Of a DNA stretch of 64,000 bases, positions 43,204-64,000 are shown one piece after another. Positions within the stretch are counted from its first letter, which is position 1; each line of letters begins with the position of its first letter. The position numbers were made by a program, and so were the translations under genes. This DNA is from a virus: positions 1 through 64,000 of the IMG/VR virus record IMGVR_UViG_3300049215_000171; one strand, written 5' to 3'. Under the pieces are notes generated by a model that worked only from the letters and a program-made list of their open reading frames with translations, was not told the origin of the DNA and made no database searches.

Positions 43204-44040
43204 ATGCTACACATACTAACACTATCTTGGCAGGGTAAATCTAAATTAGAAAAACTTGCTCCAACACTAACCAAATCATTAAACAATATTGAATATAAAT
43301 GGTTAGTAAAAGAGAATGGTTCTAATGATGGTTCTATTGAATATCTAAATGGATTGAATAATCCCAATATAGTTCCAATACAATGGAAAGATAATTTACA
43401 AAACTTCGCTCAAGGATGTAATGTATTATTCAAGGAAGCATCACCAAAGGAAAGTGATTATATTCTATTACTCAACAATGATATCATTTTTAATGATACT
43501 GCGTCAATTAGGAACATGATTAAGATTATGGATAATGATGACGGTGTAGGTGTGGTTGGAGCAAAACTAAATTATACGAATACAAAAAAAATCCAGCATT
43601 GTGGGATAACATGGGACGGTCGTAAGGATCTTTTACCCTGGCACTATCGACTTGGTGAAATGGAAGACGCTAACGCTCGAAAAAATAGGGAGTTCGATGC
43701 TTGTACTGGAGCGGTTCTTTTAATTCGCGCTGGATTATACGAAAACGTATGCACAAATAAAGATGGATTAAAAGGATTAAATCAAGGTTATTTTTGGTGT
43801 TTCGAAGACGTGGATCTTAATATGAAAATTAAATACATAATGGATAAAAAAATTATATATTGTGGTGAAACGAATATCTTCCATGAAGAAAGTGCAACAT
43901 TAAAGAAAACAAATGCAAATCGTCTTTTTATGCAACACAATGTAAATCTATTCCGTAAAGAATGCAGTCAATGGATTATTGAAAATCATAAATATTATGT
44001 TGCAGATCCAAACTACAATCTATATAGAGGCAAAAAATGA
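43204..44040 (+). CDS. Glycosyltransferase, GT2 type
   Basis: A 278-residue protein that starts directly after the preceding stop codon. GT-A features are visible: HILTLSWQGKSKLEKLAPTL, WLVKENGSNDGSIEYL, the QGCNVLFKEA helix, LLLNNDIIF (NND in place of DxD), and CFEDVDLNMKIKYIM, with the ED that often provides the catalytic base. It resembles rhamnosyl-transferase-like GT2 enzymes. The last four bases overlap the next gene (ATGA), a sugar-nucleotide dehydratase, so the two are probably co-expressed and may act in sequence. Confidence 0.85.
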   Translation: MLHILTLSWQGKSKLEKLAPTLTKSLNNIEYKWLVKENGSNDGSIEYLNGLNNPNIVPIQWKDNLQNFAQGCNVLFKEASPKESDYILLLNNDIIFNDTASIRNMIKIMDNDDGVGVVGAKLNYTNTKKIQHCGITWDGRKDLLPWHYRLGEMEDANARKNREFDACTGAVLLIRAGLYENVCTNKDGLKGLNQGYFWCFEDVDLNMKIKYIMDKKIIYCGETNIFHEESATLKKTNANRLFMQHNVNLFRKECSQWIIENHKYYVADPNYNLYRGKK

Positions 44041-46121
44041 AAACTAAATTACTTATAACAGGAAGTTGTGGTTTTATAATTTCTAATTTTATTCGTAAAG
44101 CAATTTATGACAAAGCCCCATATGATCTAATTAGTATTGATAGAGTATCAAAATCATCATTGCTAAATAATATATTCGTAAATAAAAGCCATACATTCTA
44201 TCTTGCAGACATATGTGATGAGCATATAATAAATAGGATTTTCGAATATGAGAAGCCTGAAATTGTTTTGCACGGAGCTGCTTGTAGCTTCGTTGATGAT
44301 TCATTAAAGAATCCTAATGATTTTATTCGTTCCAATGTTCTTGGAACGCAGATAATAGTAAATGCTTGCGTAAAATGGGGTGTAAAAAAGCTGGTATATA
44401 CCTCGACTGACGAAGTTATGGGATCATTGAAATCGCCGAACGATCCGCCTTGGACAGAAGAAGCGGCATTAGATCCAAAGAATCCATATTGCTTAGCATC
44501 AGATACATTGGTGTTGACTGATAGCGGGCAATGGAAAGAAATAAAAACAATTGTAAAAAATAATAATATAATTGGATTTGATTTTCAGCAGAATAAACCA
44601 AAACTATCTACGGTAGAAGAATCCCTATTTAAGAATGGTGAAAAGTTATTAGAAATAAAAACAGAATTTGGAACATTAAAATGTTCACCAGAACATACAC
44701 TATTTATACGAAGATATAAAAGACTTGAGTCTGGCAAATTAGACGCCAAACATGCAAAAAAAAATAATACTATTCAAGAAATTAAATCTAAGGATCTTGT
44801 TGTTGGAGATTTTCTAGCTATGCAAAGACAAGACCCAGAGCCAACCAATTCAACAAAAATAAATCCGATGTTATGTAGATTTTTGGGTTATTTTCTTGGT
44901 GATGGTAATTGTGGTAGAAATACTAAAAATAAGAATACAATGTACATAAAGCTAGCTGATGAATCAAAAGAAAGGTTAGAACGTTATTGTGATATTATTA
45001 AAATAATAACTAAAGAATTATATGGCAGGGAGGCGCGTCCAAGTTTTTATAAACACAGTACAAAAAATTGCTGGTACCTTAGTTTTGGATGCCAACCATT
45101 AATAGAGCTAATTGAAAAATTAAAATTAAATAATAAATCAAAAGACAAAGTAATTTCTCCTGAAATATTTAATTGGTCAAACGATGCCATTTATGAGTTT
45201 TTAGCTGGTTATTTTGACGCTGATGGTAACATAACTAATTGTCAAGGATTGACGGCTTCATTTTCTAGTTCTAGTTTAAAATTATTAAATAATATAAAAT
45301 TACTATTGCGTCGAGCTGGGGTATTGGCACACGAATCAAATGAATATAATATTATTAAATGGGGAAAAGAAAGAGTGTATTGGAAGTTAAATATATCAGA
45401 TTCTAAATCAATGATGATGTTTAAAAAATATATAAAATCAGATAAAAATATATATGAAGTTTTAGCAAAACCACAAAGAATGCTGGATGATAATAATTTA
45501 GTTGTTGTAAGGGTTCAAGAAATTTTAGTTAAACAAACTGATGATATATTATATGATATATGTGCCCCCGAAACTAAAAATTTTATAGCTAACGGGTTTA
45601 TAGTGCATAACTCGGCTTCCAAAGCATCGGGCGAATTGATAATCAAAGCAGCAAATAATTCGTTCGGGCTTCCATATGTAATTACTCGTGCCAGCAATAA
45701 TTACGGCCCAAGACAATCAGAAAAGCTGATTCCAGTAATCATAAAATCAATTATGAATAATCAAAAAATTCCAGTGTATGGTAATGGCTCATTCCTTCGT
45801 GAATGGACTTATGTAGATGATAACTGCGCTGCATTGCTTGCAGTTCTTGGATCAGATAAAATTAATACGATATATAACATATCATCAAATCAAGAATATT
45901 CTAATATAGAGGTCGTGCAAGAAGTATGCAACTCAATGGGCGGTGGTCATAACCTAATTGAGCATATTACCGATCCTCGTGGCAACGGACATGACTTCCG
46001 TTATTCCGTGAATTGTGATAAGATCAAAAGTGAATTAAATTGGAAGCCAGAAGTAAAATTCAAAGATGGTATTGCCAAGACAGTCCAGTGGTATAAAAAT
46101 AATCCATACTTCGCAAAATAA
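44037..46121 (+). CDS. rmlB: dTDP-glucose 4,6-dehydratase (RmlB-type SDR) interrupted by an intein
   Basis: A 694-residue precursor. After removal of residues 152-525 the remaining 320 residues form an extended SDR enzyme: N-terminal NAD motif TGSCGFI, YTSTDEVMG (substrate/catalytic Thr-Asp-Glu), YxxxK split as Y151 | S-A-S-K529, RASNNYGPRQ, FLREWTYVDDNC and HDFRYSVNCDKIKSELNW. The T-D-E triad is typical of dTDP-glucose 4,6-dehydratases, which make dTDP-4-keto-6-deoxyglucose. The usual TGGAGFIG is altered to TGSCGFIIS. With an RmlA-like enzyme at 55824 it would supply a deoxysugar donor. No RmlC or RmlD is seen in the window. GDP-mannose or UDP-glucose relatives are possible. Confidence 0.85.
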   Translation: MKTKLLITGSCGFIISNFIRKAIYDKAPYDLISIDRVSKSSLLNNIFVNKSHTFYLADICDEHIINRIFEYEKPEIVLHGAACSFVDDSLKNPNDFIRSNVLGTQIIVNACVKWGVKKLVYTSTDEVMGSLKSPNDPPWTEEAALDPKNPYCLASDTLVLTDSGQWKEIKTIVKNNNIIGFDFQQNKPKLSTVEESLFKNGEKLLEIKTEFGTLKCSPEHTLFIRRYKRLESGKLDAKHAKKNNTIQEIKSKDLVVGDFLAMQRQDPEPTNSTKINPMLCRFLGYFLGDGNCGRNTKNKNTMYIKLADESKERLERYCDIIKIITKELYGREARPSFYKHSTKNCWYLSFGCQPLIELIEKLKLNNKSKDKVISPEIFNWSNDAIYEFLAGYFDADGNITNCQGLTASFSSSSLKLLNNIKLLLRRAGVLAHESNEYNIIKWGKERVYWKLNISDSKSMMMFKKYIKSDKNIYEVLAKPQRMLDDNNLVVVRVQEILVKQTDDILYDICAPETKNFIANGFIVHNSASKASGELIIKAANNSFGLPYVITRASNNYGPRQSEKLIPVIIKSIMNNQKIPVYGNGSFLREWTYVDDNCAALLAVLGSDKINTIYNISSNQEYSNIEVVQEVCNSMGGGHNLIEHITDPRGNGHDFRYSVNCDKIKSELNWKPEVKFKDGIAKTVQWYKNNPYFAK
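44490..45611 (+). mobile_element. Intein with LAGLIDADG homing endonuclease in the dehydratase
   Basis: A 374-residue in-frame insertion. It begins with Cys (CLASDTLVLTDSG, block A), has block B-like GTLKCSPEHTLF, two dodecapeptides (FLGYFLGDGN near protein residue 282, FLAGYFDADGN near 387) and ends ILYDICAPETKNFIANGFIV then His-Asn before Ser+1 (blocks F and G). All residues needed for splicing are present: Cys1, block B His, penultimate His, terminal Asn, Ser+1. The endonuclease looks intact, with acidic residues in both dodecapeptides. The insertion falls between the catalytic Tyr and the next Ser of YxxxK. Confidence 0.93.
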
Positions 46122-46170: not shown

Positions 46171-47583
46171 ATGAGCAGCGGATTCATAAGTGAAAAAGGT
46201 AAAATCAAGATGACAGCTCAAACTACAAGACTAAATACGGTAGGAGAAACTATTGTGGATGATATAACAAATGAGAAACCGGCTATGGATATAGATCAAG
46301 AAAAACTTGCAAGATTAAAAGCAAAATTAGCAGAAAAAACTAAGGATGTCGATATAGTAAAACAAGAGGAACCAATGAGTGTAAAACCAGTGAAGAAAGA
46401 ACGATCAATTAATTTTGGAATAATTGGTTCGGGACAAGCAGGGAGCAAGTTAGCTCAACAATTCCGTGAGTTTAATTATGATTGCGTTGTTTTAAACACA
46501 ACACAAAACGATTTGAAATTTATTGATGTGCCCGAAAGCAACAAATTGTTATTGGAATATAATGCTATTGGTGGGGCAGCTAGAACACTTAGTATTGGTC
46601 GAGAGGCAACGGAAGCTAACGCTGATGCAATAAAAGAACTAGTTAGTAAACAGTTAGCAGATGCACAAGTGTTTGTTTTATGTTCGTCATTGGGTGGCGG
46701 TAGCGGAGCAGGCAGTTGCGAGGTATTAGTAAATATTCTAAATGAATTAGGTAAGCCAATTATAATTATTGGAGTATTACCAATGCATTCAGAAGATCTT
46801 AAAGCAAAATCGAATGCTATGGAAACACTTGCGGTACTATCAAAAGATTTACAAAATAAAAAAGTAGCTAATATTATATTGGTAGATAATGCAAGGATAG
46901 AATCTATTTATTCTAATGTTGGTCAAATGGATTTTTATTCGGTTGCAAATAAGGCAATTGTTGAACCATTAGATATGTTTAATTTATTGTCATCAGCACC
47001 ATCATCAATTAAAAGTTTAGACAGTATGGAATGGTTAAAGATTTTAATTGACTCATCAGGATATTCTACATATGGTTCAATGGAGATCGAAGATTTTAGT
47101 TCCGAAACTTCGATAGCAGAAGCTATTATATCAAATATGAATAATAATCTGCTTGCAAGTGGTTTTAATATTAAAGAAAGCAAATACGTGGGGTTTATTG
47201 TTGCAGCAAATAAAACCGTGTGGAAAAGTATTCCGGCCGTTGCTATAAATTATGCTAACGCATTATTAACAGAACAATGTGGAACACCTGAAATATTCAG
47301 GGGTATCTATGAAATAGATGAACCACGAGATGTTGTTAAAATTTACTCATTTTTTTCTGGGCTCGGTATTCCAGCAGAGCGTACTACACAATTAACCGAA
47401 GAAATAAAAAATCTATCAAACGTTGTAAAAGAAAAAGAAACTGCACGTAATCTAAATGTAGCACTCAACACAGGTAAGAATACCACAATAACTGACGCAC
47501 AAAAAGTCAAAGATAAAATTGCTGCCAAAACAAGCACATTTGGAAAGTTTCTTGGTGGAAATGTGGTAGATCGAAGAAAATAA
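46171..47583 (+). CDS. Phage tubulin/FtsZ-like GTPase
   Basis: A 470-residue protein (or 457 from ATG 46210, which has a purine-rich site upstream). It has an unrelated N-terminal extension of about 80 residues, then the tubulin fold: FGIIGSGQAGSKLAQQF (T1), the GGGSGAG signature at about 174-180 (GTP phosphate loop), KSNAMETLAVLSKDL, and SLDSMEWLKI, in which Asp and Glu match the T7 catalytic DxxE. A further FtsZ-like block lies at YVGFIVAAN. Phage tubulins of the PhuZ/TubZ group form filaments that centre or segregate phage DNA. Here both nucleotide binding and T7 hydrolysis residues appear intact. It is clearly divergent from cellular FtsZ. Confidence 0.85.
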   Translation: MSSGFISEKGKIKMTAQTTRLNTVGETIVDDITNEKPAMDIDQEKLARLKAKLAEKTKDVDIVKQEEPMSVKPVKKERSINFGIIGSGQAGSKLAQQFREFNYDCVVLNTTQNDLKFIDVPESNKLLLEYNAIGGAARTLSIGREATEANADAIKELVSKQLADAQVFVLCSSLGGGSGAGSCEVLVNILNELGKPIIIIGVLPMHSEDLKAKSNAMETLAVLSKDLQNKKVANIILVDNARIESIYSNVGQMDFYSVANKAIVEPLDMFNLLSSAPSSIKSLDSMEWLKILIDSSGYSTYGSMEIEDFSSETSIAEAIISNMNNNLLASGFNIKESKYVGFIVAANKTVWKSIPAVAINYANALLTEQCGTPEIFRGIYEIDEPRDVVKIYSFFSGLGIPAERTTQLTEEIKNLSNVVKEKETARNLNVALNTGKNTTITDAQKVKDKIAAKTSTFGKFLGGNVVDRRK

Positions 47584-55564: not shown

Positions 55565-55827
55565 AAAAAATAAAATATCAAGTGCATGGATTCTTTGGAT
55601 CATTGGAGGAAGGAACAATTATAGATGCATACTTAGTATCACAAGATAAACATACTAAGGATGCATTGATTTACCATCCTAAAAGCAAGAACGGTTGTGC
55701 ATCAGTAGATATATGTAGTTTTGATAAAACTAATAACTGTTTTATAACAGTTCATCCAGACGCATATATTAATATTGGTGCCAAAGATATATTTAAATCA
55801 CTAATACAGAAAAATAAAAAGAAATGA
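55561..55827 (+). CDS. Small hypothetical protein
   Basis: An 88-residue basic protein that overlaps its neighbours by ATGA at both ends. Beta-strand rich, with HGFFGSLEEGTIIDAYLVSQ and a C-terminal Lys run. No family recognised. Confidence 0.5.
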   Translation: MKKIKYQVHGFFGSLEEGTIIDAYLVSQDKHTKDALIYHPKSKNGCASVDICSFDKTNNCFITVHPDAYINIGAKDIFKSLIQKNKKK

Positions 55828-56546
55828 TTAAAAATGCAATAATGCTAACAGGCGGAACAGGTTCCCGTCTCCTTCCGTTCACAAAACTAATATCAAAGCA
55901 CCTCCTCCCAGTAAATGGTAAAATGATAATTGATTACCCTATCAAAACACTAACAGATATGGGTATCCAAAACTTAACCATTGTCGTCGGTTCCTCATTT
56001 TCAGGACAGATATTAGATTATATTCAGGATGGCAGTCAATTCGGACTCAATGTAAATTACTGCTATCAACAAAAGCCACAGGGAATTGCACAAGCAATTA
56101 ATATATGTAAAAGATATGTTGAAGATGATGATCAGTTCGTTGTTATTCTTGGGGACAATGTATTTACAAATCCTATCAAATGGAATAATACTAACACCGA
56201 TGCACAAATCGTTTTATGCGAACACAACGAATTACAAAAGTTCGGCGTAGCATCGGTAAATCAAGAAGGCAAAATACAATATTTTATTGAAAAACCAAAA
56301 GCAATAAATTACGCATATAATAATTATGCCATAGCAGGATGTTATTTATTTGATCAAGAGTTTTTTAATTACTTCGCTGGTATGGTTCCATCAGATAGAG
56401 GTGAGTTCGAGATTGTCGATATTATAAAACAATATCATAAAGACAATGAACTTAGCTATATAGTTCAGGATGGGTTATGGAGCGACGCTGGAACACACGA
56501 TTCGATTGCATTTCTAAATAATTATTTTTACACACAGGGAAAATGA
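55824..56546 (+). CDS. rmlA: Glucose-1-phosphate thymidylyltransferase-like nucleotidyltransferase (RmlA-type)
   Basis: A 240-residue protein with the sugar-nucleotidyltransferase signature GGTGSRLLPFTKLISKHLLP at residues 10-29 (G-x-G-x-R and Lys). YCYQQKPQGIAQAI near residue 80, LGDNVF near 112 with the metal-binding Asp, IEKP near 155 and the final WSDAGTHDS block complete the match. RmlA couples dTTP and glucose-1-phosphate to dTDP-glucose, the substrate of the dehydratase at 44037. It lacks the C-terminal 50 residues of full-length RmlA, which serve oligomerisation and allosteric control. Overlaps of 4 bases on both sides place it in the replication operon, far from the glycosyltransferases. 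Confidence 0.85.
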   Translation: MIKNAIMLTGGTGSRLLPFTKLISKHLLPVNGKMIIDYPIKTLTDMGIQNLTIVVGSSFSGQILDYIQDGSQFGLNVNYCYQQKPQGIAQAINICKRYVEDDDQFVVILGDNVFTNPIKWNNTNTDAQIVLCEHNELQKFGVASVNQEGKIQYFIEKPKAINYAYNNYAIAGCYLFDQEFFNYFAGMVPSDRGEFEIVDIIKQYHKDNELSYIVQDGLWSDAGTHDSIAFLNNYFYTQGK

Positions 56547-61365: not shown

Positions 61366-64000
61366 ATGTTTAAACAGACTATATCTTTTGATACGTGGGG
61401 CGGGGAGAACGGTAAATACAGATTAAAAAACAGACTTAATGAATCATTAGAAGATACACCTGAAGACACTTGTAAAAGAGTTTCCAACGCGCTAGCCGAT
61501 TCAGAAGAGTCAGATAAAAAAGCCTATTGGAATGATCAATTTAATTCTATTATGGGAACAAAGTTTGCTGGCGGTGGTCGTATAATGGCCAATGCTGGAG
61601 CTACCGAACATAAAAAAGAAACGAGTCCCATTAATTGCACAGTTATGAGGCAAATACCTGATTCAATGATTGGTATTATGGATGTTGCTAAAGAATCCGC
61701 ATTAACATTAAAAGCTGGATGCGGTGTTGGATATGATTTTAGTCCAATACGCCCAAAGGGCGCTCACGTATTTGGTGCCGGCGCCGCAACGTCAGGTATC
61801 ATTTCTTTTATGAAGATTTTTGATGCCGTATGTTCTACGGTAATGTCAGGTGGTGCCAGACGCGGTGCTCAAATGGCTTGTTTGGATATATCCTCACCAG
61901 ACATTGAAGAGTTCATAACTGCTAAGAGACAAGATGGAGTGCTTAGATATTTTAATTGTTCAGTGTTGATAACAGATAAGTTTATGGAGACAGTTGAGAA
62001 CGATGGCAATTGGGATTTATGGTTCTGGGAAAAGATTTACGATAAGATTGATGAGAGTGATTTAAAAATAAAACTAATCAGAAAAGATGATATTCCATAC
62101 TCTCATTCAGATTTCACCTATTTTAGATATGACAAAAATCACAATGAGGTGGTATATGGAAATTGTACAACAAAAGATATTTTTATAAAAAAAGTTTATA
62201 AAACAGTAAAAGCAAAATATTTATTTGATTTGATTACTAAATCAACATATAATTTTTGGGAGCCCGGATTTATTCTTATTGATCGCGTTAATAAAGAAAA
62301 TAATTTGTATTTTTGTGAAACTATTCGTTGTACAAATCCCTGCGTTAGTGGTGATACTAGGTTAGCTACACAATATGGATTAATGACGGTAAAAGAATTA
62401 TATGAAAAACAATTGCCAATTATGGCCACGGTTGATAATAGGGCGTTTGGTGATTCGTTTGGTGTTAGTACAAAACCAGCAAAGCCAGTTTTTATGACCG
62501 CTGAAAGCGCGTCAATATATAAAGTATCGACAAATCACGGTTATGAAATAAAGGCCACAGAATGGCACGAGTTTTATACCCAAAGAGGAAAAATTAAATT
62601 AAAAGACATGGTTGTTGGAGACACATTATATATTCAGAGCGGTAAGGGGCAATTTGGAGATAAAGGTAATTACGAACTAGGATCTATAATAGGTTGGATT
62701 ACTGGTGATGGTCATTTTAGTAATGACGGTAATCATCCAGTGGCACATTTAACATATTGGAATAAAGATCGAGAGTTAGCAAATAATATGGTAAATTGGG
62801 TAAATAATATTGTTCTGAAAGAAAAGCATAATGGAAAAGAAAATAGAACATATCAATCATCAATTACTAATCAGCCAGATCAAAATAAATCTACAATTCA
62901 ATCTAGAATACTTGCAAGATATTTAGATACAAACTTTAATTTCAATACAGAAACAAAATTAAGAGTTCCAGAAATAATTTGGCAAGGCAATGAAGAATGT
63001 GTTAGGGGATATTTAAAACATTTATTTCAAGCAGATGGAACAGTGAATATACGAAATACGAGAGCTAAAAAAGAATTTAATATTAGATTAGCATCATCGT
63101 ATAAAGAGTTATTAAACGATGTGCAAATGTTATTGTCTAATTTCGGTATAGTTTCTCATATTTATAAAAGAAGAAATGAAAGATATGTGGATATGCCTAA
63201 TGGCAAAGGCGGTAGTAAACCATACTTATGTAAAATTCAATATGAATTATTGATAATGGGTGAAAGTAAAAATGTCTTCTTCAAAGAAATAGGATTTTTT
63301 GGAGCCAAACAATCTAGATTAAATGAATATATAGAAATATGTGGTAAATCTAGAAAAAAAGAAAAGTTTAAAACAAAAATTACTGATATACAGTTTGCCG
63401 GAAATGAGCCAGTATATGATACGACACAGCCAGAGAAAAACGCAGTAATATTCAATAGTTTACATACTGGACAGTGTGGCGAACAACCGCTTCACCCATT
63501 AACTTCCTGCTTACTAGGATCTATGATCCTTCCGCCGTATGTCAGTAATGGGTTTGAAAAAAATGCTTCATTTGATTTTGATCAACTCGCAAAAGACGTT
63601 CGTATAGCAACACGGGCGTTAGATAACGTGGTAGAAATTAATAATTTACCACTAAAAGAAATGCAAGAGGAAATATTATCAAAGCGTAGGCACGGACTTG
63701 GATTTACCGGACTTGGCTCCACATTAAATATGTTATGTGTGTCTTACGGTTCAGACGAAAGTCTTGAGTTTTCTGAAAAAGTAATGCTTATAATAGCTCA
63801 ACAAGGATTATTAGAAAATATATCCCTTGCAAAAGAAAAAGGTTGCGCCCCAATTTTTTCTACCGAGAAAAATAGAAAATTAGTTTTAGAATCAATTTAC
63901 TTAAAGAGATTATTAAATACATTTGATAATAAAGATGAGCTAATACAAGATATTTTACAATATGGATTGAGATTCTCTCACGCAACATCAATAGCTCCAA
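61366..64000 (+). CDS. nrdJ: B12-dependent (class II) ribonucleotide reductase with intein, 3' partial
   Basis: An open frame from ATG 61366 (GAGAGG site 6 bases upstream) to the window end, 878 codons without a stop. Outside the intein it matches class II reductases: GGGRIMANAG, INCTVMRQIPDSM, KAGCGVGYDFSPIRPKGA, SGGARRGAQMACLDI, and NP | CGEQPLHPLTSCLLGS after splicing. The rejoined CGEQ cysteine (residue 704) is the expected thiyl-radical site. These enzymes make deoxynucleotides for DNA synthesis using adenosylcobalamin and need no oxygen-dependent radical subunit. No ATP cone is seen at the N-terminus. The C-terminal part, with the electron-donor cysteines, lies beyond the window. Confidence 0.88.
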   Translation, partial: MFKQTISFDTWGGENGKYRLKNRLNESLEDTPEDTCKRVSNALADSEESDKKAYWNDQFNSIMGTKFAGGGRIMANAGATEHKKETSPINCTVMRQIPDSMIGIMDVAKESALTLKAGCGVGYDFSPIRPKGAHVFGAGAATSGIISFMKIFDAVCSTVMSGGARRGAQMACLDISSPDIEEFITAKRQDGVLRYFNCSVLITDKFMETVENDGNWDLWFWEKIYDKIDESDLKIKLIRKDDIPYSHSDFTYFRYDKNHNEVVYGNCTTKDIFIKKVYKTVKAKYLFDLITKSTYNFWEPGFILIDRVNKENNLYFCETIRCTNPCVSGDTRLATQYGLMTVKELYEKQLPIMATVDNRAFGDSFGVSTKPAKPVFMTAESASIYKVSTNHGYEIKATEWHEFYTQRGKIKLKDMVVGDTLYIQSGKGQFGDKGNYELGSIIGWITGDGHFSNDGNHPVAHLTYWNKDRELANNMVNWVNNIVLKEKHNGKENRTYQSSITNQPDQNKSTIQSRILARYLDTNFNFNTETKLRVPEIIWQGNEECVRGYLKHLFQADGTVNIRNTRAKKEFNIRLASSYKELLNDVQMLLSNFGIVSHIYKRRNERYVDMPNGKGGSKPYLCKIQYELLIMGESKNVFFKEIGFFGAKQSRLNEYIEICGKSRKKEKFKTKITDIQFAGNEPVYDTTQPEKNAVIFNSLHTGQCGEQPLHPLTSCLLGSMILPPYVSNGFEKNASFDFDQLAKDVRIATRALDNVVEINNLPLKEMQEEILSKRRHGLGFTGLGSTLNMLCVSYGSDESLEFSEKVMLIIAQQGLLENISLAKEKGCAPIFSTEKNRKLVLESIYLKRLLNTFDNKDELIQDILQYGLRFSHATSIAP
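62341..63474 (+). mobile_element. Intein with LAGLIDADG homing endonuclease in ribonucleotide reductase
   Basis: A 378-residue in-frame insertion. It begins with Cys (CVSGDTRLATQYG, block A), has block B-like ATEWHEFYT, two dodecapeptides (LGSIIGWITGDGH near protein residue 439, YLKHLFQADGT near 548) and ends PVYDTTQ then NSLHTGQ before Cys+1. The last residue is Gln, not the usual Asn. Gln-ending inteins are known in ribonucleotide reductases and can splice. The insertion site is within the active-site NPCGEQ, so Cys+1 is also the catalytic cysteine. Confidence 0.92.

Follow-up and report, generated by a model that had tools for sequence, protein, structure and literature searches.

An intein interrupts a phage dehydratase gene

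A gene for an NAD-dependent sugar-nucleotide 4,6-dehydratase of RmlB-like type is interrupted by an intein of 374 aa in the window analysed here, a stretch of 64,000 nucleotides from a 67,272-bp IMG/VR virus record. We consider it very probable (about 0.92) that this insert is a selfish, full-length homing intein residing in a jumbo-type myophage, and that it splices to restore the YxxxK motif of the enzyme. The ORF (44037-46121, + strand) is open over 694 codons and encodes 694 aa without an internal stop. Its N-extein (residues 1-151; 44037-44489, +) ends at the catalytic Tyr151, the intein extends from Cys152 to Asn525 (44490-45611, +), and the C-extein (residues 526-694 and the stop codon; 45612-46121, +) starts with Ser526-Ala-Ser-Lys529. 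The flanks thus read NPY151/Cys152...His524-Asn525/Ser526-Ala-Ser-Lys529, with slashes marking the junctions. A first-pass annotation, made from the letters alone, had described a full-length LAGLIDADG intein inside YxxxK; its residue numbering was exact, and its interval of 44487-45623 begins with the Tyr codon and closes with that of the Lys, the intein proper lying at 44490-45611. The GC content of the intein is 28.6%, compared with 35.2% for its extein.

Profile searches of the precursor agreed with this assignment. Intein_splicing (Pfam PF14890) matched with E=1.7e-15 and 57.6 bits (cut-off 35.8), LAGLIDADG_3 (PF14528) with E=1.3e-13, over its curated cut-off, and intein_Nterm (NCBIfam TIGR01445) with 30.9 bits (cut-off 24.5). 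The dehydratase models of both collections matched the extein as two halves bracketing the intein, with PF16363/PF01370 and TIGR01181 covering residues ~1-153 and TIGR01181 covering residues 525-691. The residues of a class 1 Hint intein were all found, namely C152, SPEH in block B, YDI in the F block, H524-N525 and S526 at +1. Block A, CLASDTLVLTDSG (44490-44528, +), supplies the Cys1 nucleophile and is the segment recognised by TIGR01445. Block B, GTLKCSPEHTLF (44670-44705, +), has the S-x-x-H form, and its His is invariant across the 16-intein alignment. Blocks F and G, YDICAPETKNFIANGFIVHN (45552-45611, +), contain the F-block Asp, the penultimate His and the terminal Asn, which are conserved in the inteins found at the same site in other viruses. 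Between blocks B and F lie two acidic dodecapeptides, LGYFLGDGN (44883-44909, +), whose D-G is invariant in the intein alignments, and LAGYFDADGN (45201-45230, +), which falls under PF14528; both retain their aspartates. The presence of every splice-junction residue and of both dodecapeptides had been claimed from the letters and is borne out.

The intein was modelled with AlphaFold from an alignment of 16 intein sequences, giving a confident model (mean pLDDT 90, pTM 0.89), whereas the whole precursor folded from its single sequence reached a pLDDT of 33 and was of no use. Foldseek searches of the PDB with the intein model returned intein-endonuclease folds, led by the TliVMA intein, PI-PfuI and PI-SceI and followed by I-DmoI, which matched the alpha-beta endonuclease part, with E values down to 4e-24. 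By sequence, the nearest solved chain was PI-PkoII. These results confirm that the insert consists of a Hint splicing domain and a LAGLIDADG homing endonuclease domain, and exclude a chance match.

Sister phages have an empty site and a second insertion site

The window encodes a tail sheath, head proteins, an endolysin, a DnaB-type helicase, a DnaC-like loader, a sigma factor and a TubZ-like tubulin, a gene content that identifies its source as a myophage. Three related contigs of 101,913, 133,216 and 406,470 bp (the last termed L012) were found, and in all four phages the gene order is kept: two glycosyltransferases, a hypothetical protein, a glycosyltransferase-like protein, the dehydratase, the tubulin and the endolysin. 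The 406,470-bp length of one syntenic relative points to a jumbo phage group. Among isolated phages in INPHARED, the tail sheath of the window had one weak match and its tubulin had none. The TubZ-like tubulin/FtsZ GTPase gene (46171-47583) adjoins the dehydratase gene and has counterparts of 79-96% identity in the three related contigs.

The first-pass annotation had proposed a search for intein-free homologues at the same site, and these exist. Homologues lacking the insert at exactly this point, a further mark of a class 1 intein, occur in L010, L011 and L012, all of which are precisely empty at NPY/SASK. In the 102-kb and 133-kb contigs the gene is uninterrupted and its product reads NPYSASKASGE; these orthologues share 89% and 87% identity, respectively, with the extein. 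Taken together, the anatomy, the site, the presence/absence polymorphism and the same-site homologues described below are established at the level of sequence. No raised DNA identity to the relatives was seen beside the insertion site, and hence there is no sign of recent co-conversion from the relatives sampled.

The dehydratase of L012 carries a different insert in the same gene and locus order. It is 375 aa long, starts with Cys, ends with Ser-Gly-Asn and lies directly before Thr124 of the catalytic Thr124-Asp125-Glu126 (44406-44414, + in the window). Its match to PF14890 is weak and under the cut-off (24.3 bits, E=3e-5), and it shows scarcely any sequence relationship to the window intein (E=0.001 in a pairwise comparison and 0.02 in a comparison of 17 inteins); we read it as a divergent, putative second intein. 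It also differs from the window intein in its +1 residue: the catalytic Thr would be its +1 nucleophile, while the -1 position of the window intein is occupied by the catalytic Tyr. Within this phage group, therefore, different elements have entered a single enzyme at two of its catalytic motifs.

Further inteins were observed elsewhere in these genomes. The 406-kb contig has one in a UvrD-type helicase (DPKQ/C...SHN/SLYAFRGA; L016:1501-2547, - strand). The window has a second one at 62341-63474, in an NrdJ-type ribonucleotide reductase, placed between Pro and Cys of NPCGEQPL and ending in His-Thr-Gly-Gln rather than Asn; the divergent reductases of the relatives (31-34%) showed no match to this intein part.

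Identity of the dehydratase

Among solved structures, the extein is best matched by dTDP-glucose 4,6-dehydratases, and the alignment to them runs to the Tyr/Cys junction and resumes at Ser526. In the extein alignment, the T124-D-E triad and Y151-S-A-S-K (K155 after splicing) are invariant. The serine following the tyrosine had been taken for a catalytic residue; this assignment does not hold, as Ser526 is the +1 splicing nucleophile and the equivalent of the Ser/Thr of SDR enzymes is Thr124 of TDE.

The label of an RmlB-type host protein stands at the family level only. The equivalog model TIGR01181, with a cut-off of 365.1 bits, gave 301 bits for the window precursor and 328 bits for the uninterrupted L010 orthologue, so the shortfall is also present without the intein. 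In addition, the NAD-binding GxxGxxG motif reads GSCGFII (44061-44081, +), and its third Gly is replaced by Ile or Met in each of the four phages, GSCGFI(I/M), the loss being shared with the intein-free orthologues; in the same alignment this position is still G in L009 and L043, which belong to the more distant viruses described below. A search of the four phage records for RmlC homologues returned none. An RmlA-like sugar nucleotidyltransferase gene (55824-56546) occurs in the window only and is absent from the three related contigs. Because of the sub-threshold score, the altered NAD motif, the lack of RmlC and the restriction of the RmlA-like gene to the window, the predicted product is best given the general name nucleoside-diphospho-4-keto-6-deoxysugar.

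Homologous inteins at the same site in other viruses

Junction patterns revealed inserts of the form NPY/C...VHN/SASKA in L009, a 95-kb contig, and in L041/L043, two contigs with near-identical genes. The GC content of these loci is 58-73%, compared with 33% for the window, and the dehydratase exteins of L009 and L043 are only 28-29% identical to that of the window; the L043 dehydratase has its closest phage match (51% identity) in an Arthrobacter phage gene that lacks the insert. Despite these differences in virus and enzyme, the junction is identical. The two inteins were the top BLAST matches of the window intein among the 17 inteins compared (26-28% identity over ~340 residues, E=2e-33 and 5e-36), were 31-32% identical to it in the alignment and have the conserved residues of blocks F and G. 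The three clustered with a bootstrap support of 81-85%, which is supportive but short of decisive. Since homologous inteins occupy the identical Tyr/Ser junction in two GC-rich viral lineages as well, this junction is, judging from these sequences, a recurrent insertion site. The pattern would fit one intein family specific for the Tyr/Ser site that has either moved between viruses or is very old and has been lost many times. The L009 virus also has an intein-like insert in a UvrD-type helicase (L018:532-3078, - strand).

The occurrence of such inteins was surveyed more widely. Homologous enzymes are encoded by 334 phage records, and in 311 of these a single stretch accounts for at least 80% of the spliced extein. 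No phage record covered 80% of the intein-bearing L043 precursor and none of 1083 plasmid records covered 80% of the window precursor, both results being indicative and short of a full census because a divergent intein could lower coverage. Exact peptide patterns taken from the intein alone found no relative among viral contigs, because the same-site homologues are only ~30% identical; it was the junction patterns that succeeded. The only match to a pattern for inteins whose end precedes TDEVYG was an unrelated protein, and a junction pattern run against 396 genomes from a single phylum yielded one chance match, HNSACK, in an unrelated frame. A scan of genome contigs returned intein relatives in GlmS, eRF1, SpoVR, DHH and RNR proteins and none in a dehydratase, which, with two narrow peptide patterns, argues only weakly for the absence of dehydratase inteins from cells. 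The LAGLIDADG inteins related to that of the window (L024-L030 and L035) included those of Persephonella GlmS-like, Woesearchaeota eRF1-like and Acidobacteriota SpoVR-like proteins, these extein names being read from sequence.

Splicing, homing and alternative explanations

The residues present suggest how the element would work. Self-excision of the Hint domain would follow the standard Cys1/Asn route, in which Ser526 would act as the +1 nucleophile, and Tyr151 would be joined to Ser526, rebuilding YSASK. The two-dodecapeptide LAGLIDADG domain, probably an active endonuclease, would cut intein-less alleles at the same codons, and repair during phage co-infection would spread the intein by homing. 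The claim that splicing is needed to rebuild YxxxK agrees with the separation of Tyr151 from Ser526-Ala-Ser-Lys529. As catalysis would depend on this rebuilding, the element would be protected from imprecise deletion and kept because only its exact loss restores the enzyme.

We also considered whether splicing might be conditional on redox state, temperature, metal or substrate and so act as a switch that governs phage glycan synthesis post-translationally, an activation role that the first-pass annotation had raised. Conditional splicing has been documented for the mycobacterial DnaB intein (PMC6195587) and the P. horikoshii RadA intein (PMC5790916), and in the window intein Cys1 is accompanied by other cysteines beside block B and in block F. 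However, no regulatory feature was found in the sequence, and the syntenic sister phages have 87-89% identical enzymes without an intein at this site, so that the enzyme needs no intein and control through it would be dispensable. A regulatory role is therefore improbable. The broader proposal that YxxxK and TDE are hot spots for unrelated inteins in sister phages and that splicing gates the onset of modified-sugar synthesis appears just as doubtful.

Slightly less probable still is that the intein is splicing-defective or capable of cleavage only, leaving a lost dehydratase and a degenerate remnant. The unusual GxxGxxI of the extein and its score under the RmlB cut-off could be read in this way, but the intein-free orthologues show the same deviations, and the frame is open with all catalytic residues of the intein and extein intact. 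The element was seen in one metagenomic contig of this phage, as a chimera or mis-join in assembly would be; yet its junctions are in-frame and codon-exact, and the identical junction recurs in two other viral lineages on three independent contigs, which makes an artefact extremely unlikely. A homing intein that splices to restore the dehydratase is thus the reading we prefer.

Comparison with known inteins

Sugar-nucleotide enzymes are not an entirely new class of host, since an intein in Methanocaldococcus UDP-glucose dehydrogenase is known. The first-pass annotation regarded the host protein as unusual, and indeed the literature searched, mostly outside subscription journals, contained no report of an intein in a dTDP-glucose dehydratase or epimerase, although priority is not firm on this basis. 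What appears to be new here is the extein family and the insertion site; the element itself is of a known, ordinary kind. Homing inteins are thereby extended to the sugar-nucleotide dehydratase family, with two insertion sites that each touch a catalytic residue. Because the gene is not DNA-related, it bears on the question of why replication and nucleotide enzymes are the usual hosts of inteins. Moreover, the empty, same-site and different-site alleles in one syntenic phage group form a natural set for studying homing and the cost of splicing.

In the mycobacteriophage intein survey, the exteins are nucleic-acid and nucleotide enzymes and structural proteins (for example TerL, RecB-like, TOPRIM and nucleotidyltransferase proteins), and its main text makes no mention of a dehydratase, an epimerase or sugar (PMC5050341). 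The LAGLIDADG homing inteins of those phages resemble the window intein in combining Hint and homing endonuclease domains, in inserting into functional motifs and in their patchy distribution among close relatives; they differ in their exteins, the one here being a sugar-nucleotide dehydratase. The TliVMA intein, PI-PfuI and PI-SceI (PDB 7qsu, 1dq3 and 1vde) share the fold of the window intein, with query-normalised TM-scores of 0.64-0.74, but are only 14-18% identical to it and occupy other exteins and sites.
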